From Pseudobutyrivibrio sp. (lineage in GTDB: Bacteria > Bacillota > Clostridia > Lachnospirales > Lachnospiraceae), in NCBI RefSeq assembly GCF_015057185.1, contig NZ_SVEV01000024.1:1-58740 (forward strand): 58,740 bases of DNA. The letters are read 5' to 3'. The notes under the pieces are model-generated. The model was not told the DNA's origin. It did no database searches and worked only from the letters and a program-made list of their open reading frames with translations. Both the position numbers and the translations under genes were made by a program. Below, one piece after another: positions 30,407-44,909 of this stretch (position 1 is its first letter; each line of letters starts with the position of its first letter).

Positions 30407-30485
30407 AACTGTACTCCTAACTGCAAGTCCATAAATACATATAATTGTAATATATGTACTAATCTTTTGATTCTACCTCAGTCAC

Positions 30486-30714
30486 TGCACTTATTTTTAC
30501 AAGTCTGTCCCCAGTAAGTGTATTTTTCACCATTGTCATAGCCTATTTATGCACTCACTTTATATTAAGTAAACAATATGAGTGCACATTATCAATTAAA
30601 TAAGCCCAAAGAATACACTTATTTTCCAACAAACAGTAAAACTAAGTGCACTGACCCATATATTCAAACATAATCCATACACTTATTTTCCCCCACACAA
30701 CTAGAATAAGTGCA
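30486..30714. repeat. Four-unit array of inverted repeats with an exact 64-bp period
   Basis: Left half-sites TRCACTT (TGCACTC in unit 2) begin at 30486, 30550, 30614 and 30678; right half-sites AAGTGYA (GAGTGCA in unit 2) end at 30522, 30586, 30650 and 30714. Each unit is a 37-bp inverted repeat followed by a 27-bp linker; interiors differ. Unit 2 changes both arms together (CTCA with TGAG instead of CTTA with TAAG). A decayed fifth unit may lie at 30422-30458. The rest of the 428-bp gene-free stretch 30407-30834 shows no gene. Confidence 0.9.
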
Positions 30715-30835
30715 GTTCCACCATAAAAAGGGATTCTTGCAACAGAAATAAGAATTGTCGCTTAGAATAATAAATTTTTAGAATTGAAAAACGCCTACGA
30801 AAGATAAGATAACAACAAAACATCCTCATGTCAAC

Positions 30836-30861
30836 AAAAAAGAAGAGCCTATGCTCTTCTT
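30836..30861 (-). terminator. Rho-independent terminator of the microcompartment operon
   Basis: 9-bp stem (30840-30848 with 30853-30861), CTAT loop, followed on the minus strand by TTTTTT. It lies 10 nt after the stop of the small basic protein gene. No other T-tailed terminator was found between it and the operon promoter. Confidence 0.9.
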
Positions 30862-30871
30862 TTACAAAAAA

Positions 30872-31120
30872 CTACATTAAAAATATTGGTAATTCACTGC
30901 CTACACCATAGTGAATATCAGAAGTGCTATTGCTGACAGGCCTTGCCTCCTCTGTCTTCTTAATAGAAGACTTCTTAGTATCAGGCTTCACCGTAGCCTT
31001 AGCTGGAGCCTTCTTAGTGTCCGGATTCACCGTAGCCTTAGCTGGAGCCTTCTTAGTGGTTGGAGCCTTCTTGGCAGTTGCATCTGCCGCTCTTTTTATA
31101 CTACCTTTTCCTACTGACAT
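30872..31120 (-). CDS. Small basic repeat protein paired with ParA
   Basis: 82 aa, not a recognised family. N-terminus MSVGKGSIKRAADAT, then a Lys/Ala/Pro-rich, disordered, histone H1-like region with two 13-residue repeats (KKAPAKATVxPDT, encoded by 39-bp DNA repeats at 30971-31009 and 31010-31048), and a non-basic C-terminal tail ending in GVGSELPIFLM. Its start lies inside the end of parA (10-nt overlap, own GGGAGG site), so the two are probably made together. It could bind DNA through the basic part and a partner through the tail; it is in the position of a ParB or McdB partner. Function is inferred only. Confidence 0.75.
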   Translation of the reverse strand: MSVGKGSIKRAADATAKKAPTTKKAPAKATVNPDTKKAPAKATVKPDTKKSSIKKTEEARPVSNSTSDIHYGVGSELPIFLM

Positions 31121-31896
31121 AATTCTAATACCTCCCGTGACATTTCTAAATACTCAAGGGCGGATCTGGCATTTTTCTTATATGCCAAAATAGGCTTGGA
31201 ATCATCCTGGGCCCACTCAACCTCCCTATCAATTCGTATAACCGTTTTAAAAACAGGAACATCTGCCTCCGCTAAAGTTTCTGACGTTTGCTTAAAATAA
31301 TTTTTACGCATGTCAACTTTGGTAATGGCAATTCCTAAAAGCTTAAGTTTGTGATTAGTTCTCCCTGCGTTATCCACAAACTCCAACATATTTGCCAGTC
31401 CAAACAACCCCCAAGGAGAGGCTTCAACTGGGACAATAACATTATCCGCTGCTGCAAGAATATTATTAACCCATCCACCAAGTGTAGGTGGTGCATCAAT
31501 TAGAATAAAATCATATTTACCTGATTTTTTCACCTTCGCCAAACAATCCTTTAAAATAGTCTGACTGCCATCCATTGAATAGAGCTTGTATTCTATCTCG
31601 CTCATCAAGGTTGATGATGGTATTAAATCTAGCCCCGGATAATCGGTATTTTGAATGTAATCCTTTAAATCATCCTGTTTTAGTATAGCAGTGTATAAAT
31701 TATGACCACCGGTAGCAAAGCTCAAAACCTGGTCCTCATCAAAATATGAAAGGGATAAATTCATTTGCATATCCCCATCAATCAAAAGTACCTTTTTACC
31801 CATAGACCACAAGCTATAACCTACATTTGCACAGCTTGTAGTTTTCCCAGAGCCGCCTTTGTTGTTTGCAAAAGCAATTGTAATTGTCTTCCCCAT
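31111..31896 (-). CDS. ParA/MinD-type ATPase (McdA-like candidate)
   Basis: 261 aa. Deviant Walker A KGGSGKTT with signature Lys13, switch DGDMQMNLS, Walker B-like FILIDAPP, typical of ParA-type cargo-positioning ATPases that use nucleoid DNA as a track. There is no N-terminal HTH. It starts 21 nt after the DeoR stop with AGGGGAAG as ribosome site and no terminator between, so it belongs to the microcompartment operon. A canonical parB is not adjacent; a small basic protein follows. Possible roles are microcompartment distribution or a chromosomal partition function. Confidence 0.85.
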   Translation of the reverse strand: MGKTITIAFANNKGGSGKTTSCANVGYSLWSMGKKVLLIDGDMQMNLSLSYFDEDQVLSFATGGHNLYTAILKQDDLKDYIQNTDYPGLDLIPSSTLMSEIEYKLYSMDGSQTILKDCLAKVKKSGKYDFILIDAPPTLGGWVNNILAAADNVIVPVEASPWGLFGLANMLEFVDNAGRTNHKLKLLGIAITKVDMRKNYFKQTSETLAEADVPVFKTVIRIDREVEWAQDDSKPILAYKKNARSALEYLEMSREVLELCQ

Positions 31897-31917
31897 TATT
31901 CTTCCCCTAGAACAAAT

Positions 31918-32688
31918 CTATTCTGCATATAGACAAGGGATTCCCTTTGCCTCAAAAAATGATAACCAATCCTCTGATGGCTTTATATCTGTGACAATCA
32001 TATCCACATCAGTGATTCCACTAATCTGAGAAAAAGCAACCTTATTAAACTTTGTATGGTCAACTGCCAATATCACCTGGGTTGCTGACTTGATCATTTC
32101 CTGCTTAACCTGAGAAAACAGCTCATTAGCATCGGTTATGCCTCTTTCAATATCAAGTCCCTTGCAGCTTAAAATCACCTTGTCTGCATGGTAGGAATTG
32201 ATAGAGCCAATACATTTTGGTCCAACCAAAGCTAAATAATTTGAAACAAGGGCACCTCCAGTGGAAAGCACCTGCCATTCATCATTATCAGAAAGCTCAA
32301 GCAATACTTCTACAGAATTAGTTATTACTGTTAAATGCTTTTTGCCTTCACATGCCTTGATTACAGATACACCCGTAGAGCTAGGATCAATGAAAATGTG
32401 ATCTCCATCATTTATGTATTCACTGACAATCTTTGCAATTTTCCTTTTGCCCTCCATATTGCTACGCTGTCTAAGCAAAAAAGGCATATCATTTTCATTG
32501 CTCTCATTTAAAATAGCTCCTCCATAACTCTTTATGGCGAAGCCTTCCTTTTCAAGCTTTTCAAGGTCACGACGAATGGTTTCCTCTGACACAGAAAACT
32601 CTGCTGCCAGTTCGGAAACCACCACCTTTTTATCCTTGTTAAGTTTTTCAAGTATTAAATTCTTTCGTTCTATTGCAAGCGCTGCCAT
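31918..32688 (-). CDS. DeoR-family transcriptional regulator
   Basis: 256 aa. N-terminal HTH (VVSELAAEFSVSEETIRRDLEKLEKEGFAI split here as the usual DeoR helix pair, residues about 22-50) and a C-terminal sugar-phosphate-sensing DeoR domain (about 75-240). Its AGGAG site overlaps the stop of the BMC-T gene. Being near the end of the operon, it likely senses a fucose or rhamnose intermediate and controls the operon, including itself. Direct repeats near the operon promoter are candidate binding sites. Confidence 0.9.
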   Translation of the reverse strand: MAALAIERKNLILEKLNKDKKVVVSELAAEFSVSEETIRRDLEKLEKEGFAIKSYGGAILNESNENDMPFLLRQRSNMEGKRKIAKIVSEYINDGDHIFIDPSSTGVSVIKACEGKKHLTVITNSVEVLLELSDNDEWQVLSTGGALVSNYLALVGPKCIGSINSYHADKVILSCKGLDIERGITDANELFSQVKQEMIKSATQVILAVDHTKFNKVAFSQISGITDVDMIVTDIKPSEDWLSFFEAKGIPCLYAE

Positions 32689-32697
32689 GAAAATCTC

Positions 32698-33246
32698 CTA
32701 TATAAAAGTTCTAACTATTTGAGGATCTGGTCTAGCAATTACTGAAGAATCTAGGAACATACCACCATCTCCTGCGCTCATTTTAGCCTTTTCTATAGCT
32801 GCTTCGCAAGCAGCAACTTCACCGGTTATAAGCATATATGATTTACCGCACATTCCCTTTGCGATTCTAAGTTCCATTAATGTAACCTCTGCAGTTTTTG
32901 CTGCCACATCGGCAGCCACTATTATAGCAGATGCATCATAGGTCTCAAGAACTCCAAGAGCGTTTACCCCATCAATTTCAGCACTACCATATATTGCTGC
33001 AAATATGGACTCATCAGGGTTTCCAAGCACAAAGCTATCAATGTATTCGTCTGACCTTGTTGCAATACCTGCCTCAACTGCAGCCTTTACAGCAGAAAGC
33101 TCGCCAGTAATCAAAGCAATATATTTACCTGGGCAAACCACCTGCGCCTCAAGTATTTCTACATCCGCTGCCTTTGCCATCTGATCTGCCGCTGTAAGTC
33201 CAGCTGAAACAGTTTTAAATTCTATCATTCCTATAGCTTTTGCCAT
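32698..33246 (-). CDS. pduT: Tandem-domain shell protein, PduT type
   Basis: 182 aa with two BMC domains (about 3-85 and 96-180). It forms a trimeric pseudohexamer in the shell. Cys38 in VVCPGKYI is at the position of the PduT cysteine that binds a [4Fe-4S] cluster at the trimer pore. With PduS directly upstream, it could carry electrons through the shell. 4-nt gap to pduS. Confidence 0.92.
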   Translation of the reverse strand: MAKAIGMIEFKTVSAGLTAADQMAKAADVEILEAQVVCPGKYIALITGELSAVKAAVEAGIATRSDEYIDSFVLGNPDESIFAAIYGSAEIDGVNALGVLETYDASAIIVAADVAAKTAEVTLMELRIAKGMCGKSYMLITGEVAACEAAIEKAKMSAGDGGMFLDSSVIARPDPQIVRTFI

Positions 33247-33250
33247 TTTA

Positions 33251-34588
33251 TTACCTCTTGTTTATAGTAATATAATTTTCTGTCACTTCTGTAATCTCAC
33301 CCTCAATTGAAGAATGAATATTAACTGATAATCCATCGGCTGCCTTAGCAATAACGGTGTCAGCCTTTACATAGTCTCCGACTGCTACAATAGGAATTGC
33401 TGGTGCTCCAATGTGCTGTGACAGCTTTATTCTGACCTTATCTGCATACTGCAAAGTATTGTCTATCGGTGCTGGCTTGTTGTATTTATGAACTCCAAGT
33501 CGCATTTCCAGTCTATTTTCAGGAACCTTGCGATATTCTCTTGATGGTAAGACTTCTTTTGCAATAACCTCTGGAGCCTTCACACCAGCTTTTCTAAGTC
33601 CCGCCTTGTATGCAGCCATCATACTTCTAGGCTGCAAACCCTGTGGGCAAGAATATAACTCGCACACTCCGCAGGATGAGCAAAACATTGTATTAAGAAA
33701 TGGCTCAACACTTTGAAAATCCTTGTTGGCTGCAAATCTCATAAACAAATGTGGCTCAATCGGATGACCTAAATTATGTCTTGGACAAAGGTCTGTACAT
33801 GTCTGACACTGACAACATGCCGATGCTGCCCTTGCCAGGCTAACCTTAAAATTCTGATTCTTTTTTTGAACCAGTGAATGATTTTTATCGAGTACTATGA
33901 TTGCATTTGTTGTTTTTGTAACTGGAGCCAATTCTGATGAAAATGAACCCATCATAGGTCCACCAATAAGATAAACCGGATTCTTGCAAGTAACTGAACC
34001 TGCAAGTGCTACCACATCCTTAATTGACATTCCTATTGGTACCTTTACGGTAACTGGATTTTCTACCTCACCTACAACAGATACATATTTGCTACTGGTA
34101 GGCTCACCAAGAAAAATAGCTTTATAGGCATTATATAAGGTTTCTACGTTAAAAACCGCAACACCCTGCTCAATAGGAAGTCCTCCTGGACGAACCTGCC
34201 TTCCAGTAGCTTCATAAATTGTAACAACCTCATCTCCCATTGGGTATGAGCTAATTAATTTATGTACCCTCATTTTACAAGGCAAATCAGTTGCCTCACT
34301 GAGATGATATTCTACTGCCTCTACCGTACTTTCGTATTCACCCTTAATTGCAAATACAACCTCATCAGCCCCTACCGTATTTGCGATAGTAGCTACAGCC
34401 TTAATGATTACCTCAGCATAGTCTCTCAGCAGTTGTCTGTGAAGCTTTAATAATGGTTCGCACTCAGCGCAGTTAACAACGATGACCTGTATCTTATCTG
34501 TGAGCTTACCATAGGTGGGAAAACCAGCTCCACCGGCTCCAACTATTCCATTTTCTCTAAATAATTTTTTTAGCTCTTCAACATCCAT
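33251..34588 (-). CDS. pduS: PduS-like flavin/Fe-S electron-transfer protein
   Basis: 445 aa, RnfC-related. N-terminal glycine-rich VGAGGAGFPTYGKL and the NCAECEP motif (flavin/NADH region), a SLBB-like domain, and two Fe-S motifs: CxxCxxCxxxCP near 265 (CCQCQTCTDLCP) and CxxCxxCxxxxCP near 312 (CSSCGVCELYSCP). In B12-dependent Pdu organelles PduS reduces cobalamin. Here the dehydratase is a glycyl radical enzyme, so another electron role is likely. It begins 1 nt overlapping the shell pentamer gene. Confidence 0.92.
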   Translation of the reverse strand: MDVEELKKLFRENGIVGAGGAGFPTYGKLTDKIQVIVVNCAECEPLLKLHRQLLRDYAEVIIKAVATIANTVGADEVVFAIKGEYESTVEAVEYHLSEATDLPCKMRVHKLISSYPMGDEVVTIYEATGRQVRPGGLPIEQGVAVFNVETLYNAYKAIFLGEPTSSKYVSVVGEVENPVTVKVPIGMSIKDVVALAGSVTCKNPVYLIGGPMMGSFSSELAPVTKTTNAIIVLDKNHSLVQKKNQNFKVSLARAASACCQCQTCTDLCPRHNLGHPIEPHLFMRFAANKDFQSVEPFLNTMFCSSCGVCELYSCPQGLQPRSMMAAYKAGLRKAGVKAPEVIAKEVLPSREYRKVPENRLEMRLGVHKYNKPAPIDNTLQYADKVRIKLSQHIGAPAIPIVAVGDYVKADTVIAKAADGLSVNIHSSIEGEITEVTENYITINKR

Positions 34589-34854
34589 TATTTAAGCTTC
34601 CCTACGTCATCAATTATTCCAACGATTGCTGCATCTACTGGTGAATCTGGTCCTTGTGCTCCTACTCTAGCACTTGATCCAGTTGTAACAAGAACATATT
34701 CACCAACTCCAGCACCAATATTGTCAACGGCTACTATTTTTTCGCCACCATTTCTCATTCCTGAAAGAGGCTCAACAACCATAAATTTATTTCCTACAAG
34801 GGATTCCATTTTTCTGGTAGATACTACACTACCTGTAACCTGTGCAATTATCAT
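34588..34854 (-). CDS. pduN: Pentameric shell vertex protein (EutN/CcmL, PduN type)
   Basis: 88 aa, single BMC-P domain that caps vertices of the polyhedral shell. Begins MIIAQVTGSVVSTRKMESLVG, then VAVDNIGAGVGEYVLVTTGSSAR, the usual family pattern. It is the only BMC-P gene in the operon. Confidence 0.94.
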   Translation of the reverse strand: MIIAQVTGSVVSTRKMESLVGNKFMVVEPLSGMRNGGEKIVAVDNIGAGVGEYVLVTTGSSARVGAQGPDSPVDAAIVGIIDDVGKLK

Positions 34855-34864
34855 GGCCTACCTC

Positions 34865-35506
34865 CTATTTTATAATCATTACTTTATTGTTTGGACCAAT
34901 GCCAGAAGCATTAGCCTCATCTGTATCTATATGCATCTCCAATGTAAAGCTCTTGTCGACGCGGATTTTAACCTTGTTAAAAATGGTTCCTCGTTCGTTA
35001 TCAACCTTTACACTGACGTAATCTCCGTCTTTAACCTGTGCTTTTGCTGCATCCTCAGGAGACATATGAATATGTCTTGCTGCAACGATGCAACCCTCCT
35101 TTAAATAAATCGCTCCTTTAGGTCCAACAATAGCTATTGGCGCAGAACCAGCAGTATCTCCAGATTCCCTAACTGGAACAGTTATTCCTAGTTTTCTAGC
35201 GTCAGTTACGCTTATCTCTACCTGATTTGCTTTTCTTGTTGGTCCAAGAACTCTAACGTTCTCTATAGCTCTAAGTTTCAAGCCAACAATTGTAACACAT
35301 TCTTCACAGGCATACTGACCGCCCATCAATTCCTTTTTCTTAGTAAGCTGATGACCAGCCCCAAAAAGAGTCTCAACAGCTTCCTGTGTCAAATGAATAT
35401 GACGATTTGAAATGCCCACAGGTACCATAAAACCTGTATCCTGATATGTATTTCCCAATACTTTTATTACTGACCTAGTAATTAATTCGATATCTTTTGT
35501 TTCCAT
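34865..35506 (-). CDS. pduL: PduL phosphate propanoyltransferase
   Basis: Converts propionyl-CoA and phosphate to propionyl-phosphate and CoA inside the organelle, recycling CoA for PduP. 213 aa. Zinc ligands in two HxH pairs: His36/His38 (SNRHIHL) and His145/His147 (ARHIHM). Residues 1-18 form a short amphipathic helix (DIELITRSVIKVL), a likely encapsulation peptide. Its leader carries a strong GC hairpin at 35524-35547. Confidence 0.94.
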   Translation of the reverse strand: METKDIELITRSVIKVLGNTYQDTGFMVPVGISNRHIHLTQEAVETLFGAGHQLTKKKELMGGQYACEECVTIVGLKLRAIENVRVLGPTRKANQVEISVTDARKLGITVPVRESGDTAGSAPIAIVGPKGAIYLKEGCIVAARHIHMSPEDAAKAQVKDGDYVSVKVDNERGTIFNKVKIRVDKSFTLEMHIDTDEANASGIGPNNKVMIIK

Positions 35507-35523
35507 CTTCTTCTCCAGTAATC

Positions 35524-35547
35524 TCTGGGCCCAAGGGAGGGCCCAGA
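35524..35547 (-). other. Strong GC hairpin between BMC-H and pduL
   Basis: Perfect 9-bp stem TCTGGGCCC with GGGCCCAGA and a 6-nt loop. No T run, so it is more likely an mRNA processing or stability element downstream of the shell gene than a terminator. Confidence 0.7.
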
Positions 35548-35588
35548 TTAATGATTAAAAGTTTACGTAAAGTTTTAATACCCAGATG

Positions 35589-35867
35589 TTATTTGATTAC
35601 TGGTAAAATTGCTTCTACATCTGTGTGTGGTCTTGGGATTACGTGTGAAGCAACAAGCTCACCAAGTCTCTCTGCATTTGCTGCACCAGCCTCTACTGAA
35701 GACTTAACAGCTCCTACATCACCACGTACCATAACTGTTACGAGACCAGAACCGATCTTCTCTGTTCCAACAAGTGTTACGTTGGCTGCCTTACACATTG
35801 TATCAGCTGCCTCGATTGCTGCTGTAAGACCTCTTGTCTCAACCATTCCTAATGCTTCCTGTGCCAT
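35589..35867 (-). CDS. BMC-H hexameric shell protein (PduA/PduJ type)
   Basis: 92 aa, one BMC domain. [18 protein letters not shown] start and a KIGSGLVTV pore motif, as in PduA, which suits small polar substrates such as 1,2-propanediol. Nearly identical to the BMC-H at 36361; the two probably form the bulk of the shell. AAGGAGG before the start. Confidence 0.95.
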
Positions 35868-35895
35868 TTTGTTTACCTCCTTGAATATTTAAATA

Positions 35896-35962
35896 AAGCG
35901 GATTTCCGCTTATTCACTACGGGAAAGCTAGGCCCATGCAAATTGCCTTCGGCAATGGGCCT
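35896..35962 (-). other. Paired hairpins between two BMC-H genes
   Basis: AAGCGGA (35896-35902) with TCCGCTT (35905-35911), and AGGCCCAT (35930-35937) with ATGGGCCT (35955-35962) around a smaller TTGCC/GGCAA stem. They lie in the leader of the BMC-H at 35589 and may adjust its dose. Confidence 0.55.
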
Positions 35963-36007
35963 GCTGTGGCAAACAGGTTCTCCCCACAAGTGGGTCCCCC
36001 CTATTTG

Positions 36008-36352
36008 CTATACATCTAGTGGAATCCAATCTGCAATTGTCATACCATTTTGCTGCTTGCGACTAGCTGACAGCTCAACCATCTTTCTGGTTTCATCAGC
36101 AGGACTTGCAATGACTCCATTATTTGCCATAATTAGTCCCTCTCGCTTGCAGGCATCGCAGGCTGCTTCTACTGCAGCTTTACAATTGCTGACCGTTCCC
36201 TCAACAATAACTGTAACAAGTCTACCACCCAGTTTTCTCTCCCATGTAACAAGGCTAACATCAGCAGCCTTACACATAGCGTCAAGAGAATCAATAGCTG
36301 CGGTAACACCTGATACTTCAATTAATCCGTAAGAAGTTCCTTTGTTACTCAT
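36008..36352 (-). CDS. BMC-H shell protein with C-terminal extension
   Basis: 114 aa, one BMC domain followed by about 20 extra residues (SRKQQNGMTIADWIPLDV). The pore region reads KLGGRLVT in place of KIGSGLVT, so Gly-Ser-Gly becomes Gly-Gly-Arg, giving a charged pore. Probably a minor shell tile with its own transport or docking role. Follows the PduA-like gene at 36361 by 8 nt. Confidence 0.9.
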   Translation of the reverse strand: MSNKGTSYGLIEVSGVTAAIDSLDAMCKAADVSLVTWERKLGGRLVTVIVEGTVSNCKAAVEAACDACKREGLIMANNGVIASPADETRKMVELSASRKQQNGMTIADWIPLDV

Positions 36353-36360
36353 AAGCCATT

Positions 36361-36642
36361 CTACTTAGAAAATTTTGGAAGAATTTTCTCTACGTCTGTG
36401 TGTGGTCTTGGGATTACATGCTGAGCAACAAGCTCGCCAAGTCTTGAAGCAGATGTTGCACCAGCCTCAACTGAAGCCTTTACAGCTCCTACATCGCCAC
36501 GTACCATAACTGTTACAAGACCAGAACCGATTTTCTCTGTGCCTATGAGTGTAACCTCTGCAGACTTTGTCATTGCATCTGCAGCCTCGATTGCTGCTGT
36601 AAGTCCTCTTGTTTCTACCATTCCTAATGCTTCCTGTGCCAT
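36361..36642 (-). CDS. BMC-H hexameric shell protein (PduA/PduJ type)
   Basis: 93 aa from the ATG at 36642 (GGAGGAAA upstream); the frame is open from 36657. Same [10 protein letters not shown] opening and KIGSGLVTV pore as the paralogue at 35589, from which it differs at few residues, mainly at the C-terminus. A recent duplication. Confidence 0.95.
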
Positions 36643-36678
36643 AAATTTTTCCTCCATTTAAATGTTTAATTATTACTT

Positions 36679-36930
36679 GTTACTATTCACAGCTTCATTA
36701 TTTTTCTTACATGATTCTTATTGCTATCAAGTATAAGATGTAATCAGCCATAAGTTCTTAGTAAATAAGTATTCTGAAATGAACTTTTCGAGGACTGTTT
36801 GAGCGAAGCGAGTTCCGCAGAAAAGTTCAGAGCTTTGAAGAATACTTATGAACTTAGAACTTATGAGCACATCTATACTGATAGTAATAAGAATCATGTT
36901 CTTCAAAGCTTGATTATTGTGAATAGTAAC
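36679..36930. repeat. 252-bp imperfect palindrome inside the microcompartment operon
   Basis: Ends GTTACTATTCAC (36679-36690) and GTGAATAGTAAC (36919-36930) are exact inverted repeats. Arms of about 110 bp stay largely complementary (ATGATTCTTATT, CATAAGTTCT, AATAAGTATTCT, GAACTTTTC with their partners). The tip is GAGCGAAGCGAG. It begins 3 bp after the stop of the BMC-H at 36934 and ends 36 bp before the next BMC-H start. It accounts for nearly all of this 291-bp gap. Confidence 0.85.
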
Positions 36931-36933
36931 TAC

Positions 36934-37251
36934 TTAGTTTTTATCGAATGCGCAGATGCCAAGCATCTTAAGGGTATCCTGGGTTGGGCGGGCGATGATG
37001 TGGCTTGTTACTACTCCTGTGGTAGCCTCGGCCACGGCGCGTCCTGCCTCAACTGCTGCTGTGACATCCTCTACAGTTCCTCTGAATTTGATTGTTACTA
37101 AAAGTGGAACTGGAAGTGAATCCGCATTCGCTGGTTTGTTTTTGTCAAATGGTTCTAGGGTAACGTTTGCTGCCTTTACTCCAGCATCTGCTGCCATGAA
37201 TGCACATACAAGTCCGAATACCTCTAGAATACCTACTGCTCTTTCATCCAT
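36934..37251 (-). CDS. BMC-H shell protein with long pore loop
   Basis: 105 aa, one BMC domain (AVGILEVFGLVCAFMAADAG, then VTSHIIARPTQD). The region that forms the central pore is extended by roughly ten residues (FDKNKPANADSLPVPLLV) where PduA has KIGSGLV. No cysteine is in this loop, so it is not a GrpU-like Fe-S pore. Follows the alcohol dehydrogenase gene by 10 nt. Confidence 0.88.
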   Translation of the reverse strand: MDERAVGILEVFGLVCAFMAADAGVKAANVTLEPFDKNKPANADSLPVPLLVTIKFRGTVEDVTAAVEAGRAVAEATTGVVTSHIIARPTQDTLKMLGICAFDKN

Positions 37252-37261
37252 AGTTTTGTAC

Positions 37262-38476
37262 CTATGCTAATTCTTCTGCCATGACTGCAATCTTAAGTCC
37301 AGTCATGCTTGCTGCTTTCTGGAAGGCTTCATCAATTCTGCTAAGTGGATACTTGTCAGTGATTAACTCATTCATTGGAAGTCCAATTGCTTTTGCTCCC
37401 TTAAGGAAATCAAAAGTAGTAACGTAATCACGAAGTGTGTATACCCAAGAACCAACCTCTGTAAGCTCCTTTGAGCAGATATCAAAGTGTGGATTGATTG
37501 TTGCATCTCCTCCATTGATGAAGAATCCCAACTCACAAAGACCACCACCGTTTCTGATGAATTTGTAGATGTTTGAATGTCCTGCTGGTGAACCAGTACA
37601 CTGGAATCCAAAGTCTGCCAAATGTCCACCGAAGGCATCATAAACTCCCTTTGTAAGTCCTTCAATTCCGTCGAAATCCTTGAAGTTTGCTGTGCCAGTT
37701 GCACCAAGTCTCTTAGAGAATTCAAGTCTCTGTGGATTTCCATCTACTGTAACGATGTTTTGAATTCCAAGTGTTTTAAGTACTGCTACGCAGATAAGAC
37801 CAATAGGTCCACAGCCCTGAACAACAACTCTTGAGTTAAATCTAAGAATTCCTGTAGACTTTGCACGCTCTACTGCATGAATTAATACTGCGCAAGGCTC
37901 AATTAAAATTCTTGAATCAAGGTCAAGCTCTGATACATTGAAGAATGTCGATCCAAGTCCACCTCTTACTAAAATGTAGTTTGCAAACCAGCCATTTGCA
38001 TGGACATCATCATCTGGAAGAAGTCCATATACATCGGCTCCACCAACGTTTTTCTTATTCAGGTCAAACATTGTGATTTCTGGATCATCCTTGAAAATCA
38101 TACATGTAACAATCTTGTCACCAACGTGAACTGGCTTTCCTGCTGAGTCCACTTTTACATTTTTACCCATTTTCACGATTTCACCTGTTCCCTCATGACC
38201 GAGAGCAACTGGAATGAGTGAGAATGGATCACGTTTATACTCGTGCACATCTGTTCCACAGATTCCGCATCCTTCAACCTTTACCAAAAGGTCGTCATCT
38301 CCAACCTCTGGCATTGGATATTCTTTAACTTCCATTTTGCCAAGCTGTGTTAAAAATCCAACCTTTACAGTGCTTGGAATTGGTCCAGAAGCAGTACCTG
38401 TGCTAGGTCCGTCGCCATTTAAATTATTAAGTACTGATTTAACAATAGCTTCGACCTGTGCTGCATTCATTTCCAT
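37262..38476 (-). CDS. Zinc-type alcohol dehydrogenase with encapsulation peptide
   Basis: 404 aa medium-chain dehydrogenase. An N-terminal tag of about 18 residues (AAQVEAIVKSVLNNL) and a flexible linker precede the enzyme, matching an encapsulation peptide. Zinc site: Cys70/Cys73 (GCGICGTD) and GHE with His94, Glu95. NAD-binding VVVQGCGPIGLIC. The structural four-Cys zinc loop seems absent. Likely reduces propionaldehyde to propanol, or lactaldehyde to 1,2-propanediol, recycling NADH inside the shell. GGAGG lies 7 nt before the start. Confidence 0.9.
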   Translation of the reverse strand: MEMNAAQVEAIVKSVLNNLNGDGPSTGTASGPIPSTVKVGFLTQLGKMEVKEYPMPEVGDDDLLVKVEGCGICGTDVHEYKRDPFSLIPVALGHEGTGEIVKMGKNVKVDSAGKPVHVGDKIVTCMIFKDDPEITMFDLNKKNVGGADVYGLLPDDDVHANGWFANYILVRGGLGSTFFNVSELDLDSRILIEPCAVLIHAVERAKSTGILRFNSRVVVQGCGPIGLICVAVLKTLGIQNIVTVDGNPQRLEFSKRLGATGTANFKDFDGIEGLTKGVYDAFGGHLADFGFQCTGSPAGHSNIYKFIRNGGGLCELGFFINGGDATINPHFDICSKELTEVGSWVYTLRDYVTTFDFLKGAKAIGLPMNELITDKYPLSRIDEAFQKAASMTGLKIAVMAEELA

Positions 38477-38494
38477 TTCATTTCCTCCTTGTTT

Positions 38495-39886
38495 TTATCG
38501 AATACAAAGACTATCGCTCATTGTGCAACGACGTCTCTTTGTAAATGTTGCTGCTGAAGTAAGTCCCTCTCCTGTTCTTGATGCAATAGTAAATGTTGGG
38601 AAGCCTTCGCCACCAAATCCTAGTGCTGCATAGCTTGGACCATTCTTTACTAGGATTGCTGTGTCTAACGCTCTAGCATATTCTGTAATTCTGTCCACAT
38701 TCTTTGAATGAATATGAGCTGAATGTCTATTGCCATGCTCTAGCCATACTGATGTAGCAACACCTTCTTCGAAATCCTTTACTCTGACAACTCCAAGAAT
38801 TGGCATCATAAGCTCTGTTGAAATAAGCTTGTGCTCCTTTGGTCCTTCAAAAATGATGCATCTAGTTCCCTCTGGTGCCTCAACACCCACCATTTTGAGA
38901 AGTGTTTTGGCGTCTCGACCTACGCATTTACGATTTAAAACGCCCTTCTCATTCATTACTGTTGCAACAAGCTTGTCCTGAACGTCCTTTGAAGCAACAT
39001 AGCAACCATTTTCCTCAACCATGTATTTCATAAGCTCATCGCATATTGAACTAACAGCAACTACTTCCTTTTCTGCTATACATGGTAAATTGTTATCAAA
39101 TGTGCATCCATTAACAATATCCTGTGCTGCCTTACGTATGTCTGCTGTCTCATCAACGAATGCTGGTGGATTTCCTGCGCCTGCGCCTATTCCTCTCTTT
39201 CCACTTGAAAGAACTGCTGTAACTACTCCAGGACCACCTGTTGCTACAAGAAGTGGAATATCCTTGTGCTTCATCATTATTGCTGAAGTATCAAGTGTTG
39301 GCTTTGCTACTGTAACTGCAATGTTGTCTGGACCGCCACACTCTAGTGATGCTTCATTGCAAATATTGATTGCAAATTGACTTGTTTTTACTGCCTGTGG
39401 ATGAGGATTGAAAACTACTGTGTTTCCTCCTGCAACCATTCCCATTGTATTGCAGAGAACTGTTTCAGATGGATTAGTGCAAGGAGTGATTGCTCCGATT
39501 ACACCAAATGGTCCCATCTCTACAAGTGTAAGACCTCTGTCACCTGACCATGCAAGTGTCTTAATATCCTCTGTACCTGGTGTCTTTTCAGCTACAAGTA
39601 CATGCTTTAAAATCTTGTCTCCCACATTTCCCATGCCAGTTTCCTCAACACCCATGCGGGCAAGTGTCTCGGCATTTTCCTTAATCTTCTCACGAATCTT
39701 AGAGATGATTTTTTCTCTTTGATCCATAGACATTCGAGAGATGATTTTCTGTGACTTCTTAGCTTCTTCAATGGCTACATTCATGTCATCAAAAACTCCA
39801 TGACAGCCATCCTTTTCAGACTGAACCTGAAGTGTAGTCATTACTGAAGTCACAATGGATTGAATTTGGCTTTCACTTAAATTCAT
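38495..39886 (-). CDS. pduP: CoA-acylating propionaldehyde dehydrogenase (PduP)
   Basis: Oxidises propionaldehyde to propionyl-CoA with NAD. 463 aa. N-terminal encapsulation helix SESQIQSIVTSVMTTL, an ALDH fold with ITPCTNPSETV near 133, GAGNPP near 236 and the catalytic Cys269 in DNNLPCIAEKE. Feeds PduL. 18 nt upstream of the alcohol dehydrogenase gene, 15 nt after the aldolase. Confidence 0.95.
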   Translation of the reverse strand: MNLSESQIQSIVTSVMTTLQVQSEKDGCHGVFDDMNVAIEEAKKSQKIISRMSMDQREKIISKIREKIKENAETLARMGVEETGMGNVGDKILKHVLVAEKTPGTEDIKTLAWSGDRGLTLVEMGPFGVIGAITPCTNPSETVLCNTMGMVAGGNTVVFNPHPQAVKTSQFAINICNEASLECGGPDNIAVTVAKPTLDTSAIMMKHKDIPLLVATGGPGVVTAVLSSGKRGIGAGAGNPPAFVDETADIRKAAQDIVNGCTFDNNLPCIAEKEVVAVSSICDELMKYMVEENGCYVASKDVQDKLVATVMNEKGVLNRKCVGRDAKTLLKMVGVEAPEGTRCIIFEGPKEHKLISTELMMPILGVVRVKDFEEGVATSVWLEHGNRHSAHIHSKNVDRITEYARALDTAILVKNGPSYAALGFGGEGFPTFTIASRTGEGLTSAATFTKRRRCTMSDSLCIR

Positions 39887-39901
39887 TTAATTCTCCTTGG
39901 C

Positions 39902-40747
39902 TTACATGTTTGCCAAAATGCTCTTAACAATTGCTGCTACCTGGTCCTCTGAAACTCCCTTTGAACCAGCACAAGTACTATCTCCTGAGAAATCATACTG
40001 ATAACCAGGCATTGTTCTGTCGATGTCTCCACAAGAGCCACCGCAGTTATGACAATTAGTACCACCCTTGTTTAAGCAAACATTTGCTGGATGCTTTCCT
40101 GGCATACCAAACTTCTGACGAATCTGATAAAGCTTCTTGATGTTTGCCTCATCAAATTCCTTAGGTCCGCCAAGCATCTTTGACTTGTAAAGAAGCTCTG
40201 CGTAGAACTCTAATGATTCCATCTTCATGTAAGCTGCATTAAGGTCTGTTGACCATGTAAGAGCACCATGATTCTCAAGAAGAACTGCATCGAAATATGG
40301 TAAATATTTCTCAAGGTTGTCAGGAATCTCCATTGTTGATGGTGTGCCGTACTCAGCGATTGGAACACATCCAAGAGCGATAACTGCCTCTGGCATAATT
40401 GGCTGAGTAAGTGGAATACCAGCAATTGCAAATGCTGTACCATACATTGGATGAGCATGAACTACTGAACCAACATCTGGTCTCTTTTCATAAACTCTCA
40501 TGTGCATCTTGATTTCTGAAGATGGCTTGAAGCCTTTATTCGCCTGAATTACATTTCCCTTCTCGTCTACCTTGCAGATGAACTCAGGTGTCATAAAACC
40601 TTTTGAAACACCAGTTGGTGTACAAAGGAACTCATGATCATTGAGCTTTACAGAAATGTTTCCATCGTTTGCTGCAACCATGTTACGGTTGTAGATTCTT
40701 TTGCCGATTTCACAAATCTGCTTTTTGATTTCCATTTCGTTTACCAT
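39902..40747 (-). CDS. fucA: Class II aldolase (L-fuculose-phosphate type) with Cys-rich linker and C-terminal encapsulation peptide
   Basis: Splits fuculose-1-phosphate to DHAP and L-lactaldehyde (possibly also related ketose phosphates). Zinc ligands by position: Glu78, His98 and His100 (VVHAHP), His160 (ENHG). After the catalytic domain (about 1-215) comes a linker with Cys at 224, 232, 235, 239 and 259, then VSEDQVAAIVKSILANM at 265-281, an encapsulation peptide at the C-terminus. This tag places the aldolase inside the organelle, a hallmark of GRM5-type loci. AGGAGG upstream. Confidence 0.93.
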   Translation of the reverse strand: MVNEMEIKKQICEIGKRIYNRNMVAANDGNISVKLNDHEFLCTPTGVSKGFMTPEFICKVDEKGNVIQANKGFKPSSEIKMHMRVYEKRPDVGSVVHAHPMYGTAFAIAGIPLTQPIMPEAVIALGCVPIAEYGTPSTMEIPDNLEKYLPYFDAVLLENHGALTWSTDLNAAYMKMESLEFYAELLYKSKMLGGPKEFDEANIKKLYQIRQKFGMPGKHPANVCLNKGGTNCHNCGGSCGDIDRTMPGYQYDFSGDSTCAGSKGVSEDQVAAIVKSILANM

Positions 40748-40773
40748 TTTTATAAATCCTCCTTCATTTATTA

Positions 40774-41199
40774 CTAATTATTTAGGTAATCTAATATTTC
40801 ACCTACGCCCTCTCCCTTGAGTGAGTTAACGTGAAAAATCTTTTTAACCCCCGCTAGTTCTAACCATCTGTCTGCCAGCGGAACATTGGCATCGTCTTTA
40901 TCTATCTTTGTAACAATGCCGATGCATTCTCTGTTTGCCTGTGCACTAACTCCCGGTGGGAAAAGACTGTATGGCTCGTTTGCCGCCACAAGAATTCCTA
41001 CCACATCTGCTTCATAGGTATATAAAGCAAGAGCTTTTCCAAGTCGATGACTCTGGGCATATTCACCTGGAGTATCAATTACCGACTCGTAATTGTGCAC
41101 GTCTTGAGTTTTGTAATAGTGAATCTCCTCACCTCGCAGTGCCTGTGTTAATGTTGTTTTGCCTGCGTGGCTTCGACCCATGAGAATCAATTTTCTCAT
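40774..41199 (-). CDS. pduV: EutP/PduV-type small GTPase
   Basis: 141 aa P-loop protein: G1 GRSHAGKTT, G3 DTPGEY, G4 TKIDKDD. PduV and EutP associate with microcompartments; suggested roles include organelle movement or acetate kinase activity (EutP). Overlaps the PduU-like shell gene by 4 nt. In the same operon as a ParA-type ATPase, so two candidate positioning factors coexist. Confidence 0.9.
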   Translation of the reverse strand: MRKLILMGRSHAGKTTLTQALRGEEIHYYKTQDVHNYESVIDTPGEYAQSHRLGKALALYTYEADVVGILVAANEPYSLFPPGVSAQANRECIGIVTKIDKDDANVPLADRWLELAGVKKIFHVNSLKGEGVGEILDYLNN

Positions 41200-41570
41200 G
41201 TTTTTGTTACCTCACATACTGTATAGCCAAGCTTGTTTTTTACATATTCAAGCTGTGCCACCATTGCCGCTTCAACCTCACTGACTGTCCCCGTAAAAAT
41301 CAGTGAACCTGAAAATCTATCTACGAAACCAATTTGAATTCCACTGGCTTTCATAGCAATGTCTGCCATAATGATTGCTGTCTCTGACGGTGTAACTGTG
41401 GTCACTCCAATAGCAGCCTTGGCATAATCAAGCTTAGGATCAAGTCCTAGCTTTTTGTATAGTACCTCGTCTGGACTGGCGATAATGTGCGCCAAGGTCA
41501 CCTGACGTCCCGGTACATATTCCTGGATGATTCGTTGATACTTCTCATCCTCAATATTTAAGTACTCCAC
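41196..41570 (-). CDS. pduU: Circularly permuted BMC-H shell protein (PduU/EutS type)
   Basis: 124 aa. RIIQEYVPGRQVTLAHIIASP at the N-terminus forms the beta-barrel cap of the PduU/EutS class; later VTPSETAIIMADIA and GFVDRFSGSLIFTG are typical. The pore is expected to be capped by a barrel. Ends with the family's CEVTK tail. 1 nt after the activase gene. Confidence 0.94.
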   Translation of the reverse strand: MEYLNIEDEKYQRIIQEYVPGRQVTLAHIIASPDEVLYKKLGLDPKLDYAKAAIGVTTVTPSETAIIMADIAMKASGIQIGFVDRFSGSLIFTGTVSEVEAAMVAQLEYVKNKLGYTVCEVTKT

Positions 41571-41571
41571 T

Positions 41572-42366
41572 TTAGCCTCCTATCTGACAGTTTAGACTAG
41601 TAGAGTTTTCAACTGCCTTTTTTAGCATTTCCATATGGTCATTTTCTGGTGGAAGAATATCTCCCATTGGATAACTACGATTTAATCCATCGTATTTGTC
41701 CTGACCTAATCTGTGGTAAGGAAGCAAATGTATTTTTTCTACTCCCTTTAGCTTGTCAGCAAATTCTGCAATGCTAACAATTTCTTCAACTGAATCATTG
41801 AATGTTGGTATAACAGGAACTCTAATTACAAGCTTTGTCATACCGCTTTCAGCAATCTTCCTTGCATTCTCAAGCATCAGTATGTTGTCTCTACCGCAGA
41901 ATTCTTTGTGTTTGTTTGGATCCGTATGCTTGATATCCATCAAATATGTATCTAATACAGGAAGAATTTTTTCTATTACTTCGAATTTAGCGCATCCCAT
42001 GGATTCCATTGCTGTATTAATTCCAGCTGCCTTTGCTGTTGCAAGTAACGCATATGCGAATTCTGGTTGACAAAGGCTCTCACCTCCCGAAAGAGTAAGT
42101 CCTCCGCCAGAGCGCCAGTAATAATGGGAATCCCTCCTAACAGTTTTCATAACCTCTTCAACCGTTACATCTCGACCAATGGTTTTAGGCTTCCCATCAA
42201 CCATCATTGTTTCGATTTCATAGCTTTGAGATTCTGGATTACAGCACCATCTACATCTCATGACGCATCCCTTGAGAAAAACTATTGTGCGAATTCCGGG
42301 ACCATCATGTATGGAGTAACGCTGAATATCAAATATTCTGCCTTTAATCTTTAATAAATCATCCAT
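41572..42366 (-). CDS. Glycyl radical enzyme activase (radical SAM)
   Basis: 264 aa. Radical SAM motif CxxxCxxC at Cys34, Cys38, Cys41 (GCVMRCRWCC), SAM-binding GGGLTLSGGE. It abstracts hydrogen from the glycine of the dehydratase encoded 3 nt upstream. It has no ferredoxin-like Cys insert after the radical SAM motif, so it resembles pyruvate formate-lyase activase in size rather than the longer glycerol-dehydratase or choline-lyase activases. Confidence 0.95.
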   Translation of the reverse strand: MDDLLKIKGRIFDIQRYSIHDGPGIRTIVFLKGCVMRCRWCCNPESQSYEIETMMVDGKPKTIGRDVTVEEVMKTVRRDSHYYWRSGGGLTLSGGESLCQPEFAYALLATAKAAGINTAMESMGCAKFEVIEKILPVLDTYLMDIKHTDPNKHKEFCGRDNILMLENARKIAESGMTKLVIRVPVIPTFNDSVEEIVSIAEFADKLKGVEKIHLLPYHRLGQDKYDGLNRSYPMGDILPPENDHMEMLKKAVENSTSLNCQIGG

Positions 42367-42369
42367 CTT

Positions 42370-44889
42370 CTAGAACCCCATTTCAGTTCTCTTAATGATG
42401 TCATCCTGCAAGCTCTTTGATAGGGTTGTAAATAATGCGGAATATCCTGCTACTCTAACTACCAAGCCCTTATATTTCTCTGGGTGAGCTTGAGCATCAA
42501 GCAATGTTTCTTTTGACACAACATTGAACTGCATATGCATTCCCTTTTGGTCAAAGTAGCTACGAATTAAACTAACAAAATTGTTAAGTCCCTCATCTCC
42601 TGAAAGAGCTGTTGGATGGAATTTCATGTTATAAAGTGTTCCATTACTTGCTATTCCATGGTCAAGCTTTGCAACTGAATTGGCAGCAGCTGTAGGTCCA
42701 TGTGTATCTCGGCCTGCCGATGGTGATACTCCATCTGCCACCGGTGTTCCTGCTAGACGACCATCTGGTGTAGCTCCTGTCTGGGCTCCAAGTGGAACAT
42801 TAGCAGATACAGGATAAAGTCCTGCTTGGAACTGACCTCCTCTTGGATTGTGATATTTTAAAAGCGGTTTGGTGTAGGTATAAGCTACATCTCTTGCAAA
42901 AGCATCAACCTCTTCATCATCATTTCCAAACTTAGGAGCTTCCAAAATCATCTGTCTGATTTCTTTGTATCTAGCCTTTTCCTCTGGTGTAACGGATGCT
43001 ATGACAGCCTGTACTGTTGCCTCAACCGATTTAGCATCTGGAACAACACCCTTGTTTGCCATGCTTATTGTTGCCTTGCCTGCCAATTGAGCAATTGAAT
43101 TTTTCTCTAGGTCTTCTCCAAAATTAAACGTCAAAGCTCTCTTTAGCTCTGATAATGTGAATTTCTTTTCTTTGAAAACTAATTCCTTGATGGCATATAA
43201 GCCATCTGCCATATTTGCTATTCCAAAGCCCTGTGGACCTGTAAAGTTGTAAATTGCTCCACCTTGCTCTGGCGTCTTTCCTCGCTTCACACAATCATCA
43301 ATCATAGTCGAAAGGAAAGGTAGTGGAACTCGCTCTGCATGAGCTTGGTCTATGGCGTTATCGGAATTAACTAGCAGTTCTATAAAGTAATTCATCTGAG
43401 TCTTATAGGCGTCATAGAATTCATCAAAGGATGTCATTTCCTCAACTGCCTTTGTCTTAGGACCAATCTGTTCTCCAGCATCAACTCCCTGTGAAAATAC
43501 AAGCTCGACAGGTCTGCACATATTAAAGAATGCTGCATCATGCCAGCCCCATGTTTTTCCCTGGACCTGAGGCTCTACGCAACCAATAATTCCGTAGTTT
43601 CTTGCCTCCTCCATTTTCACTCCCCTGTTCATTAGGGATGGAATAATAACTTCATCATTGTAGTAAGCTGGAAGTCCCACACCTGTACGTGTAACCTCTG
43701 CTGCTCTAATCAAAAGCTCGTGAGGACTACCGTTCCAAACTCGAATTGAAAGAGAAGGCATTGGCAGATGTACATGAATTGATGCGTCTAAGCACATAAA
43801 TGAAATATCATTTGTAGCATCTAAGCCTTCTGTATTCTGACCGCCAACGATAAGATTCTGAAAAAGTGAATAGCCTGCAAATCCCTTTGCACTTTCTCCA
43901 TCTCTGCATTTATTTAAGTCATTAAGCTTTATCCAAATACAATCAATTAGTTCCTGAGCAAATTCTCTTTTTATTGCACCCTTTTCAATATCAGCCTTGA
44001 AATATGGATACATATACTGATCAAATCGACCTGGTGAAATTGAATGTCCACTTGATTCTAGCTGTAATAGCTGCTGTATAAACCAAAATGACTGACAAGC
44101 CTCATAAAATGATGTAGCAGGCTTTGCTGGAACTCTTCTACAATTTCTTGCAATCTGTTTTAGCTCTGCAGCCCTTATAGGATTTGTTTCCTTTGCTGCC
44201 ATCTCTTCTGCTCTAACAGCATATCGATTAGCGTAATCAATAACTGCCTGACAGCTGATTAACATTGCCTGCAGTAATCGGCTTTTTGTGGAATAATTTG
44301 CATCGCCAGGCTTTACAGTTTCAAGCTCTGCTGCAATATCCTTCATTATTCCTTCGTAACCCTTTTCTAGTACCTCCCAGTACTTTACAGTCACATGTCC
44401 AACGCCATTGTAGAAATAATTACCTGTTGTAAACATGTTGTGTTCCATTGCCTTGATGGTTTCCGGAGCCATATAGCTAAGGGCTAATTCTGAAGTAGTG
44501 CGGCCTTTCCAATATTTGTCAGCCTCTTTAATTTCCTCAGCTGTTTTTCTTTCTATATGAAATTTATCAGCTTCTCTAGTTTCAACAGTATCAAACTCTT
44601 TTTCTAACCACTCATAAGAAAACTCAGGATATGTCTGGCATCCCCTAGGAGCGATTGTTGTACTGCCAACTATAAGCTCATCATCTCTGATAATAATTGG
44701 GATATTCTCCAAGATATGTTTGAAGGCCAAGGCTCTTCTAATGACCATAGGCTGACCTTCTGTTTGTTTATAAGATTCCGTAATAAGAATTGCACGAGCA
44801 GACTCTATCTCAGGCATCTTCGCAAAAAGTGCCTCTTTTAAACGATTGATTCTGTCTGTTTTGTCACATCTAGTGCTATCGTAAGTCAT
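42370..44889 (-). CDS. Glycyl radical 1,2-propanediol dehydratase (B12-independent)
   Basis: Dehydrates 1,2-propanediol to propionaldehyde. 839 aa from the ATG at 44889, which has GGAGGGAG upstream. Numbered from that start: thiyl Cys437 and Glu439 in GIIGCVEPQ, Asp451 in WGWHDAAFF, His165 in NGVGHV, radical Gly815 in RVAGYSALF. The Cys-x-Glu pair, the Asp 14 residues on and the His match the glycerol/propanediol dehydratase group, not pyruvate formate-lyase (Cys-Cys). No encapsulation tag is seen on it. First gene of the operon; substrate assigned mainly from context. Confidence 0.94.
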   Translation of the reverse strand: MTYDSTRCDKTDRINRLKEALFAKMPEIESARAILITESYKQTEGQPMVIRRALAFKHILENIPIIIRDDELIVGSTTIAPRGCQTYPEFSYEWLEKEFDTVETREADKFHIERKTAEEIKEADKYWKGRTTSELALSYMAPETIKAMEHNMFTTGNYFYNGVGHVTVKYWEVLEKGYEGIMKDIAAELETVKPGDANYSTKSRLLQAMLISCQAVIDYANRYAVRAEEMAAKETNPIRAAELKQIARNCRRVPAKPATSFYEACQSFWFIQQLLQLESSGHSISPGRFDQYMYPYFKADIEKGAIKREFAQELIDCIWIKLNDLNKCRDGESAKGFAGYSLFQNLIVGGQNTEGLDATNDISFMCLDASIHVHLPMPSLSIRVWNGSPHELLIRAAEVTRTGVGLPAYYNDEVIIPSLMNRGVKMEEARNYGIIGCVEPQVQGKTWGWHDAAFFNMCRPVELVFSQGVDAGEQIGPKTKAVEEMTSFDEFYDAYKTQMNYFIELLVNSDNAIDQAHAERVPLPFLSTMIDDCVKRGKTPEQGGAIYNFTGPQGFGIANMADGLYAIKELVFKEKKFTLSELKRALTFNFGEDLEKNSIAQLAGKATISMANKGVVPDAKSVEATVQAVIASVTPEEKARYKEIRQMILEAPKFGNDDEEVDAFARDVAYTYTKPLLKYHNPRGGQFQAGLYPVSANVPLGAQTGATPDGRLAGTPVADGVSPSAGRDTHGPTAAANSVAKLDHGIASNGTLYNMKFHPTALSGDEGLNNFVSLIRSYFDQKGMHMQFNVVSKETLLDAQAHPEKYKGLVVRVAGYSALFTTLSKSLQDDIIKRTEMGF

Positions 44890-44909
44890 ATCTCCCTCCA
44901 ATCGGAATT

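Follow-up and report, generated by a model that had tools for sequence, protein, structure and literature searches.

Two overlapping genes at the end of a microcompartment operon, parA and the gene for a small basic partner protein, are read here as a ParA-driven, McdAB-like positioning system for a fucose/rhamnose-degrading GRM5-type microcompartment, a reading to which we assign a probability of about 0.78. The first-pass annotation had put the pair forward as a candidate for organelle positioning, and this proposal is supported by the presence of shell genes in 42/42 genomes that carry the ATPase, by the position of the pair at the operon end in many loci and by a partner with two conserved ends, whose C-terminal aromatic agrees with that published for McdB-like proteins of other microcompartments. 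The window, i.e. the whole stretch of 58,740 nucleotides that was analysed, contains the following features at this locus:

30838..30863, minus strand: intrinsic terminator 3' of the pair, with arms at 30838-30848 and 30853-30863
30872..30895, minus strand: C-terminal tail of the partner, codons ELPIFLM plus stop; proposed to bind the shell, a role suggested by passages of PMC11321042
30872..31120, minus strand: McdB-like partner gene (82 aa, basic, predicted disordered; MSVGKGSIKRA...GSELPIFLM)
31088..31120, minus strand: N-terminal end of the partner, codons M-S-V-G-K-G-S-I-K-R-A; proposed to bind the ATPase, a role suggested by passages of PMC12204374 and PMC10241942
31111..31896, minus strand: ParA/MinD-type ATPase gene parA (261 aa; Walker A with signature lysine, NNKGGSGKT)
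31918..32688, minus strand: DeoR-family regulator, directly upstream of parA (Pfam/NCBIfam)
32698..33246, minus strand: PduT-like tandem BMC shell protein (Pfam/NCBIfam)
32698..44901, minus strand: GRM5-type operon, from family matches (activase label from sequence only)
35589..35867, minus strand: PduA-type BMC-H shell protein, without an arm here; its homologue is the arm-bearer in partnerless loci

The operon specifies a glycyl-radical enzyme, its activase, EutS, an EutP/PduV GTPase, a class II aldolase, AldDH, AlcDH, four BMC-H proteins, PduL, BMC-P, PduS and PduT. Diol dehydratase with activase, fuculose-P aldolase, lactaldehyde reductase, PduS, PduT and DeoR are all present, as in the GRM5 gene set defined in sections of PMC6325248 and PMC4207490. 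From the start of the glycyl-radical enzyme gene (44901) to the end of the partner gene (30872) the genes occupy 14.0 kb of a single strand. As originally annotated, parA follows 21 nt behind deoR (deoR end 31918, gap 31897-31917) and overlaps the basic-protein gene by 10 nt (31111-31120), the 82-aa translation of which ends in GVGSELPIFLM. The hairpin terminator claimed directly behind the pair was likewise recovered; its fold, surroundings included, has -15.7 kcal/mol (z -4.2), equalled in 1 of 200 shuffles. A consensus terminator scan missed this hairpin, which we think is due to A-T pairs eating into the T run. The scan listed no site in the deoR-parA gap and gave minus-strand sites within deoR (32272) and parA (31420); its total of 11 sites is no excess over shuffles (10.2). 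That the pair belongs to the 14-kb transcript should not be taken for granted, the regulator at the same place in Clostridium phytofermentans being up only twofold and read as a separate unit (PMC3557285, in the portion of a table which ends with that regulator). Promoter-like sites in the window are no commoner than in shuffles (38 against 44), and for this reason the scan speaks neither for nor against an internal promoter.

Other features of the window include a second class II aldolase gene (45084-45944) immediately 5' of the gene for the glycyl-radical enzyme, a promoter-like TTGACA-17-TATACT (44981-44953) between these two genes, and a tandem of two similar long genes (49047-50528 and 50934-52397), which we take to be flagellins. 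Positions 30480-30720 hold direct and inverted copies of CACTTATTTT / AATAAGTGCA, a 38-nt repeat pair that is 79% alike; this cluster lies upstream of a 265-aa ORF (29609-30406, minus strand) without a Pfam match.

The ATPase matches AAA_31 (1.1e-49) / CbiA in Pfam and possesses the deviant Walker A, signature lysine and catalytic aspartate of the ParA/MinD family. Four residues are invariant across 28 aligned rows: K13, K18, D40 and R197. We take K13 to be the signature lysine, K18 the Walker A lysine and D40 the catalytic aspartate; R197, aligned with a ParA chain of known structure, would be the conserved DNA-contacting (nucleoid-binding) arginine. Compared as a profile with solved chains, the family is closest to ParA/Soj (1e-37 to 1e-31), with McdA at 2e-16, which as far as profiles go speaks against grouping it with McdA. 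The window's own genome encodes a separate Soj-Spo0J pair at another place and, on contig C7 (L003, 878-2274), a further ParA followed by a 202-aa protein, which looks like a plasmid-type pair unrelated to that of the window. Since the genome has both this Soj-Spo0J pair and another ParA with a different neighbour, the window ATPase is an extra copy, and its identification as the chromosomal Soj was ruled out.

An ATPase orthologue (cut-off E 1e-40) was found in 42 of 397 genomes of the window's family (Lachnospiraceae), the 41 besides our own being 53-66% identical. The group is sharply set off, since its weakest member has E 9.7e-82 against a cut-off of 1e-40. The shell domain PF00936 is present in 119 of the 397 genomes and in every one of the 42 (chance P 2.6e-25), although G042 shows a single shell match only. 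A glycyl-radical enzyme of the operon's type (E 1e-250 or better, two candidates scored per genome) occurs in 73 genomes overall and in 40 of the 42, G080 and G204 being the exceptions. The association of ATPase with enzyme has a Fisher p of 3e-32, or 3e-9 inside the 119 shell-bearing genomes, and of 1e-33 and 1e-10 when the four least similar enzymes (53-56%) are dropped; like the chance value above, these overstate independence because the genomes are related. By genus the ATPase is present in 37 of 334, a count which does not remove the inflation. ParA is not essential to the organelle, since 33 of the 73 enzyme-bearing genomes are without it. In the one genome of the same genus (G153) ATPase, shell domain and enzyme are all absent at these thresholds. 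Among 381 genomes of the wider class four pass: our own, two of another family (G472 and G646), both shell-bearing, and G449 at 34%. The last was rejected as an orthologue, its neighbour being a 331-aa protein without the motifs; genome G449 is shell-bearing too.

By hand count, 20 of the 42 ATPase genes have shell or operon genes no further than 30 kb away. The expectation that such pairs would not be mostly unlinked to microcompartments was borne out in part: 22 of the 42 are not within 30 kb or sit on contigs too short to judge, yet all of those genomes are shell-bearing. In the ATPase tree (103 rows besides the Soj outgroup) the window and 38 others follow operon genes and 6 precede them; the neighbours are rhamnose-type genes in 19 rows and an iron alcohol dehydrogenase in 11, and 28 rows have none of the neighbours searched. 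An ATPase gene with a small partner gene near BMC genes, the arrangement by which McdAB is recognised, is present in the window, and operon genes adjoin parA in 38 + 6 of these 103 rows. Rhamnulokinase and rhamnose mutarotase neighbours of parA were confirmed by NCBIfam. Directly upstream of parA is DeoR, or DeoR with iron alcohol dehydrogenase, in 35 of the 38 operon-linked loci; EutP takes this place in two exceptions (L138, L152), and the third (L040) has only weak PduL-like (41%) and PduS-like (31%) neighbours. The recurrence of DeoR, together with the EutP/PduV GTPase encoded in the operon, lends something to the account that this GTPase does the positioning while the ParA pair and the adjacent DeoR regulate operon expression. 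To the same side belongs a clade of loci without a partner gene, in which parA lies mostly beside what is presumably an AraC-like gene, often with rhamnulokinase. We regard this account as very improbable, given the 28 of 103 rows without any searched neighbour and a tail motif in the partner that makes no clear sense in a regulator.

Among 18 unlinked ATPase-bearing genomes in which the enzyme was located, enzyme and activase lie apart from the shell genes in 12 (L205, L206, L208-L211, L213, L215, L216, L218, L219, L221). Eight shell loci from such unlinked genomes comprise four that hold aldolase, AldDH, AlcDH, PduS and PduT without the enzyme, two contig fragments of similar content and two loci of other types. 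Some genomes have a split GRM5 layout, with enzyme and activase alone and the aldolase-shell operon elsewhere, and among the genomes whose organelle was typed the usual companion of the ATPase is one of fucose/rhamnose type, sometimes in a split operon. Isolates with an unlinked ParA and partner include Blautia wexlerae (L120) and Diplocloster (L109/L115).

The partner was surveyed in 100 distinct loci, namely 40 of the 41 family matches (genome G215 was left out) and 60 non-duplicates from the named loci, for which the 80 best were taken out of at least 403 that were confirmed; 20 duplicates among 120 loci were removed before partners and motifs were counted. The survey yielded a partner in 75 of the 100 (74 by script, L105 by eye). 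The ends of these proteins, VGxGSIxR and LPxY/FLL/M, are conserved, and the middle is variable and Lys/Ala-rich. When the gene was chosen by position alone, 72 loci had both end motifs, none had one, 24 had neither and 4 were without an ORF, the misses including L052, L089 and L105, which do have a partner. The two motifs are not chance, since 6,941 other ORFs from these loci contain the N-terminal one 5 times, the C-terminal one 4 times and both together once. All 75 aligned partners share G4, S7, R10 and the proline at -5.

Alignment of the C-terminal tail, suggested in the first-pass annotation, bore out its conservation: P is found at -5 in 74/74, and position -3 is Y in 56, H in 13, F in 4 and W in 1, the search pattern having permitted Y, F, H or W only. 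The window partner has F at -3 (F80 of 82). A Y or F among the five C-terminal residues, the McdB-like mark of other BMCs, is present in the window and, at -3, in 60 of 74 relatives; the 13 of 74 tails with H count against the positioning reading. The invariant C-terminal tryptophan of McdB is replaced by F in the window partner, and W stands at -3 in 1/74 relatives.

The 82-aa window partner has no Pfam match and a pI of 10.1. Its structural model consists of a helix at residues 5-16 with the rest coil (mean pLDDT 67, pTM 0.19; low confidence), and with that low confidence its N-terminus (MSVGKGSIKRA) is basic and disordered like that of McdB. The 66 short partners measure 61-232 aa (median 106.5), and 57 of them have a pI >9. 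In 73 of 74 cases the partner ORF starts before parA has ended, the commonest overlaps being 10, 14 or 20 nt, whereas those of at least 71 nt are probably due to wrong starts; the remaining ORF begins 24 nt behind parA.

Pfam ParB_N matches 8 of the 75 partners (E 0.001 or better), with L050 (1.1e-13) and L059 (5.8e-10) above the curated cut-off. A ParB profile seeded with our own Spo0J, L050, L059 and L177 found L117, L155, L090, L108, L095 and L140 (2.6e-25 to 1.2e-12) in its first pass, the only one used as later passes drifted onto the C-terminal ends. Including L177, which is from another family, 9 of 76 partners carry the domain. They retain both ends and, by alignment, are without the DNA-binding half of ParB, and four of them (L090, L095, L108, L140) are located at the end of a GRM5 operon. 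The structure modelled for the L155 partner (mean pLDDT 65, core ~80) matched Noc and ParB N-domains at 7e-6 and, more weakly, sulfiredoxin, which has the same fold; PadC was also among its structural matches. The domain is about equally similar to our own Spo0J and to two plasmid-record ParB proteins, and its gain or loss takes 4 changes on the tree of ParA, with the placing of the root left open. The ParB_N partners suggest descent from a partition system, in a direction that may run either way.

A histone H1-like profile matches 6 of the 75 partners (best 3.9e-6), and in the plasmid collection the best ATPase match, 40% identical and from Acetoanaerobium, has behind it an ORF of 322 aa that we take to be a complete ParB, while one at 36% (Peptoclostridium) is followed by an annotated ParB. 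These matches and the eight with ParB_N are what would be expected if the pair were a DNA partition or nucleoid-associated system, a plasmid relic or histone-like protein, merely beside organelle genes. That we consider highly unlikely: the ATPase co-occurs with shell genes in 42/42 genomes, the partners with ParB_N are without the DNA-binding half, Soj-Spo0J is encoded elsewhere in the own genome, and the ParB domain plus DNA-binding region by which ParABS is recognised was not found in the window partner, itself without a Pfam match. A recent plasmid or phage origin was ruled out, there being no record above 60% identity in either collection (for plasmids, among the best 5000 records).

The 25 loci without a partner consist of L092, where the contig ends 256 nt behind parA, and 24 loci in one ATPase clade (support 90, not starred). 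A partner profile found no match anywhere in 10 partnerless genomes (0/10; positive controls 4/4), and in four ParA-less genomes gave one match, at 0.66. In 8 of the 10 partnerless genomes parA shares its contig with the operon's enzyme gene, at a distance of 1-28 kb. All 11 partnerless ParA-bearing GRM5 operons examined (10 genomes and L122) have a Lys/Ala-rich N-terminal arm on one PduA-type BMC-H. Of the partner-bearing loci, none of 33 linked and none of 4 unlinked ones has it (Fisher p 3e-12 against the partnerless), with L078 (which contains a stretch of N) and L094 (28 codons, taken to be a misassigned start) scored as armless; counted as armed they give 2/37. In tree-independent pairs for arm and partner, four of which are supported, a mean of 2.8 are opposite, 0 alike and 1.2 show no difference, a test that cannot reach 0.05 because there are only four.

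Forty further regions comprised 22 ParA-less ones (17 with a BMC-H of at least 60% identity) and 18 ParA-bearing unlinked ones (4 with such a BMC-H). The arm is present in 11 of the 17 ParA-less GRM5 loci and so need not serve ParA; its restriction to ParA-bearing genomes was ruled out on the same count. It may have another role, e.g. in core or condensate binding. A ribosome site precedes the arm in 11/11 clade loci and in 5/11 ParA-less ones, differences between the arms of L158 and L159 fall mostly at third codon positions (12, 5, 32), and from such sequence features the arm looks translated. In 22/22 arm-bearing genes (L122 and L158-L167 with ParA; L189, L191-L197, L199, L201 and L203 without) a second AAGGAGG site stands just before the normal BMC-H start, and on account of the two ribosome sites we predict long and short forms of the shell protein from one gene. 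The arms are without a shell-binding tail, and a shell protein that bears an arm would need none. The motif [S/T]-hydrophobic-x-R-[V/A], found in 10/11 arms of ParA-bearing and 0/11 of ParA-less loci, may be linked to ParA, a lead only, as it was picked post hoc and comes from one ParA clade.

Arms in 11 of 17 ParA-less loci point to a ParA-independent role for such segments, and in PduB of other organelles, which likewise has two starts, the arm binds the enzyme core. Both observations would suit a pair that serves assembly or size control of the organelle in place of spacing, the partner being a condensing or scaffold protein whose state is set by the ATPase. This is an unlikely alternative on balance, as the ParA retains what we take to be its nucleoid-binding arginine and hydrolysis residues, and two conserved ends resemble two docking sites and not a scaffold. 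The partner's composition speaks for assembly in so far as it is low-complexity and basic (pI >9 in 57/66 short partners), and McdB proteins form condensates according to passages of PMC11321042.

Positioning remains the reading preferred here. Gene order, conserved ends and co-occurrence are observed, as is the fact that no examined locus has both a partner and a shell arm; every binding and movement step is one that we infer. ATP-bound ParA dimers would coat the nucleoid, and the partner would dock on the organelle surface by the LPx(Y/F)LL-type tail at its C-terminus. The basic helix at its N-terminus (VGxGSIxR) would touch ParA, leading to ATP hydrolysis and release, and the moving ParA gradient would spread organelles across the nucleoid and to both daughter cells. 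In the one clade from which the separate partner is gone, the two-start shell protein with its Lys/Ala-rich arm may bear the ParA-touching end.

It is possible, though we put it forward only tentatively, that the positioning system is seen here at several stages of origin from DNA partition, with three partner states. The partner would at one stage keep the N-terminal, CTPase-fold domain of ParB, flanked by an end that binds the ATPase and a tail that binds the shell, at another be reduced to these two ends joined by a disordered stretch, and at a third, as a free protein, have been lost, with the dual-start shell protein itself bearing the ATPase-touching arm. If the ParB-domain partners are intermediates, they would show a DNA-partition machine turning into an organelle-partition machine. 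For gut and rumen anaerobes the gene pair comes with predictions for each end of the partner, a natural comparison is offered by the 40 enzyme-bearing genomes with ParA and the 33 without it, out of 73, and the shell protein that may replace the partner is a natural variant.

The first-pass annotation did not know such a pair to have been described from GRM loci; this has to be withdrawn, since McdB-like proteins were already reported in general terms in portions of PMC11321042 and PMC8262871. ParA and actin-like genes were noted in microcompartment loci in 2014 (PMC4207490, in part), where the section on GRM5 names no ParA among the ancillary genes. Putative McdAB systems in several operons, with C-terminal aromatics, followed in 2021 (extracts of PMC8262871), and McdB-like proteins near PDU and GRM operons, with a C-terminal Y/F, in 2024 (extracts of PMC11321042). 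These proteins, compared by description, probably overlap the family of the window partner, and none of the names Lachnospiraceae, Clostridia, Roseburia and Ruminococcus turned up when the main text of PMC11321042 was searched for them. Term searches of the text available for the 2021 catalogue PMC8217296 (ParA, McdA, McdB, positioning) and the GRM review PMC6325248 (ParA, McdA, positioning) gave no occurrence. The searched portions of the open-licence literature do not describe the N-terminal motif, the shell arm or partners with ParB_N, nor do they contain the co-occurrence test made here. A basic N-terminus is a feature of ParA/MinD ATPase partners in passages of PMC12204374 and PMC10241942. 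Active positioning by ParA/MinD ATPases is not general, since neither ParA nor MinD affects Pdu organelles in Salmonella (PMC12866334, in the part consulted). Excerpts of PMC8262871 propose EutP/PduV for positioning and leave it as an open question whether McdAB-type spacing is restricted to carboxysomes.

Among known systems, Soj-Spo0J/ParABS shares the ATPase family and, in 9/76 partners, a ParB_N-type domain, but the partners here are without the DNA-binding half and have a shell-gene association and a C-terminal tail. PadC, a ParB-like protein of Myxococcus, has a ParB_N-type domain as well and differs in being an adaptor for bactofilin, not for a shell. The PduV/EutP GTPase is an NTPase of the same operon with a proposed part in positioning PDU organelles; it is Ras-like, of another family, and without a partner of this kind. 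The McdB-like proteins near PDU/GRM operons (Fig. 4 of PMC11321042 and passages of PMC8262871) have Y/F in the last five residues too, whereas their descriptions in those passages are without the N-terminal motif, co-occurrence test, shell arm and ParB_N. With McdAB (alpha and beta) the pair has in common a ParA-type ATPase and a small, disordered, basic partner encoded with shell genes, an aromatic near the partner's C-terminus and a basic N-terminal stretch. It differs in that the cargo would be a catabolic GRM5-type organelle, the tail is LPx(Y/F)LL-like where McdB has a tryptophan motif, the ATPase is nearer by profile to ParA/Soj than to McdA, and the partner is absent in one clade and has a ParB_N domain in some loci. 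Judged from sequence, the pair is tied to its organelle by co-occurrence and, while not a member of McdAB by the defining residue, is of McdAB-like design.
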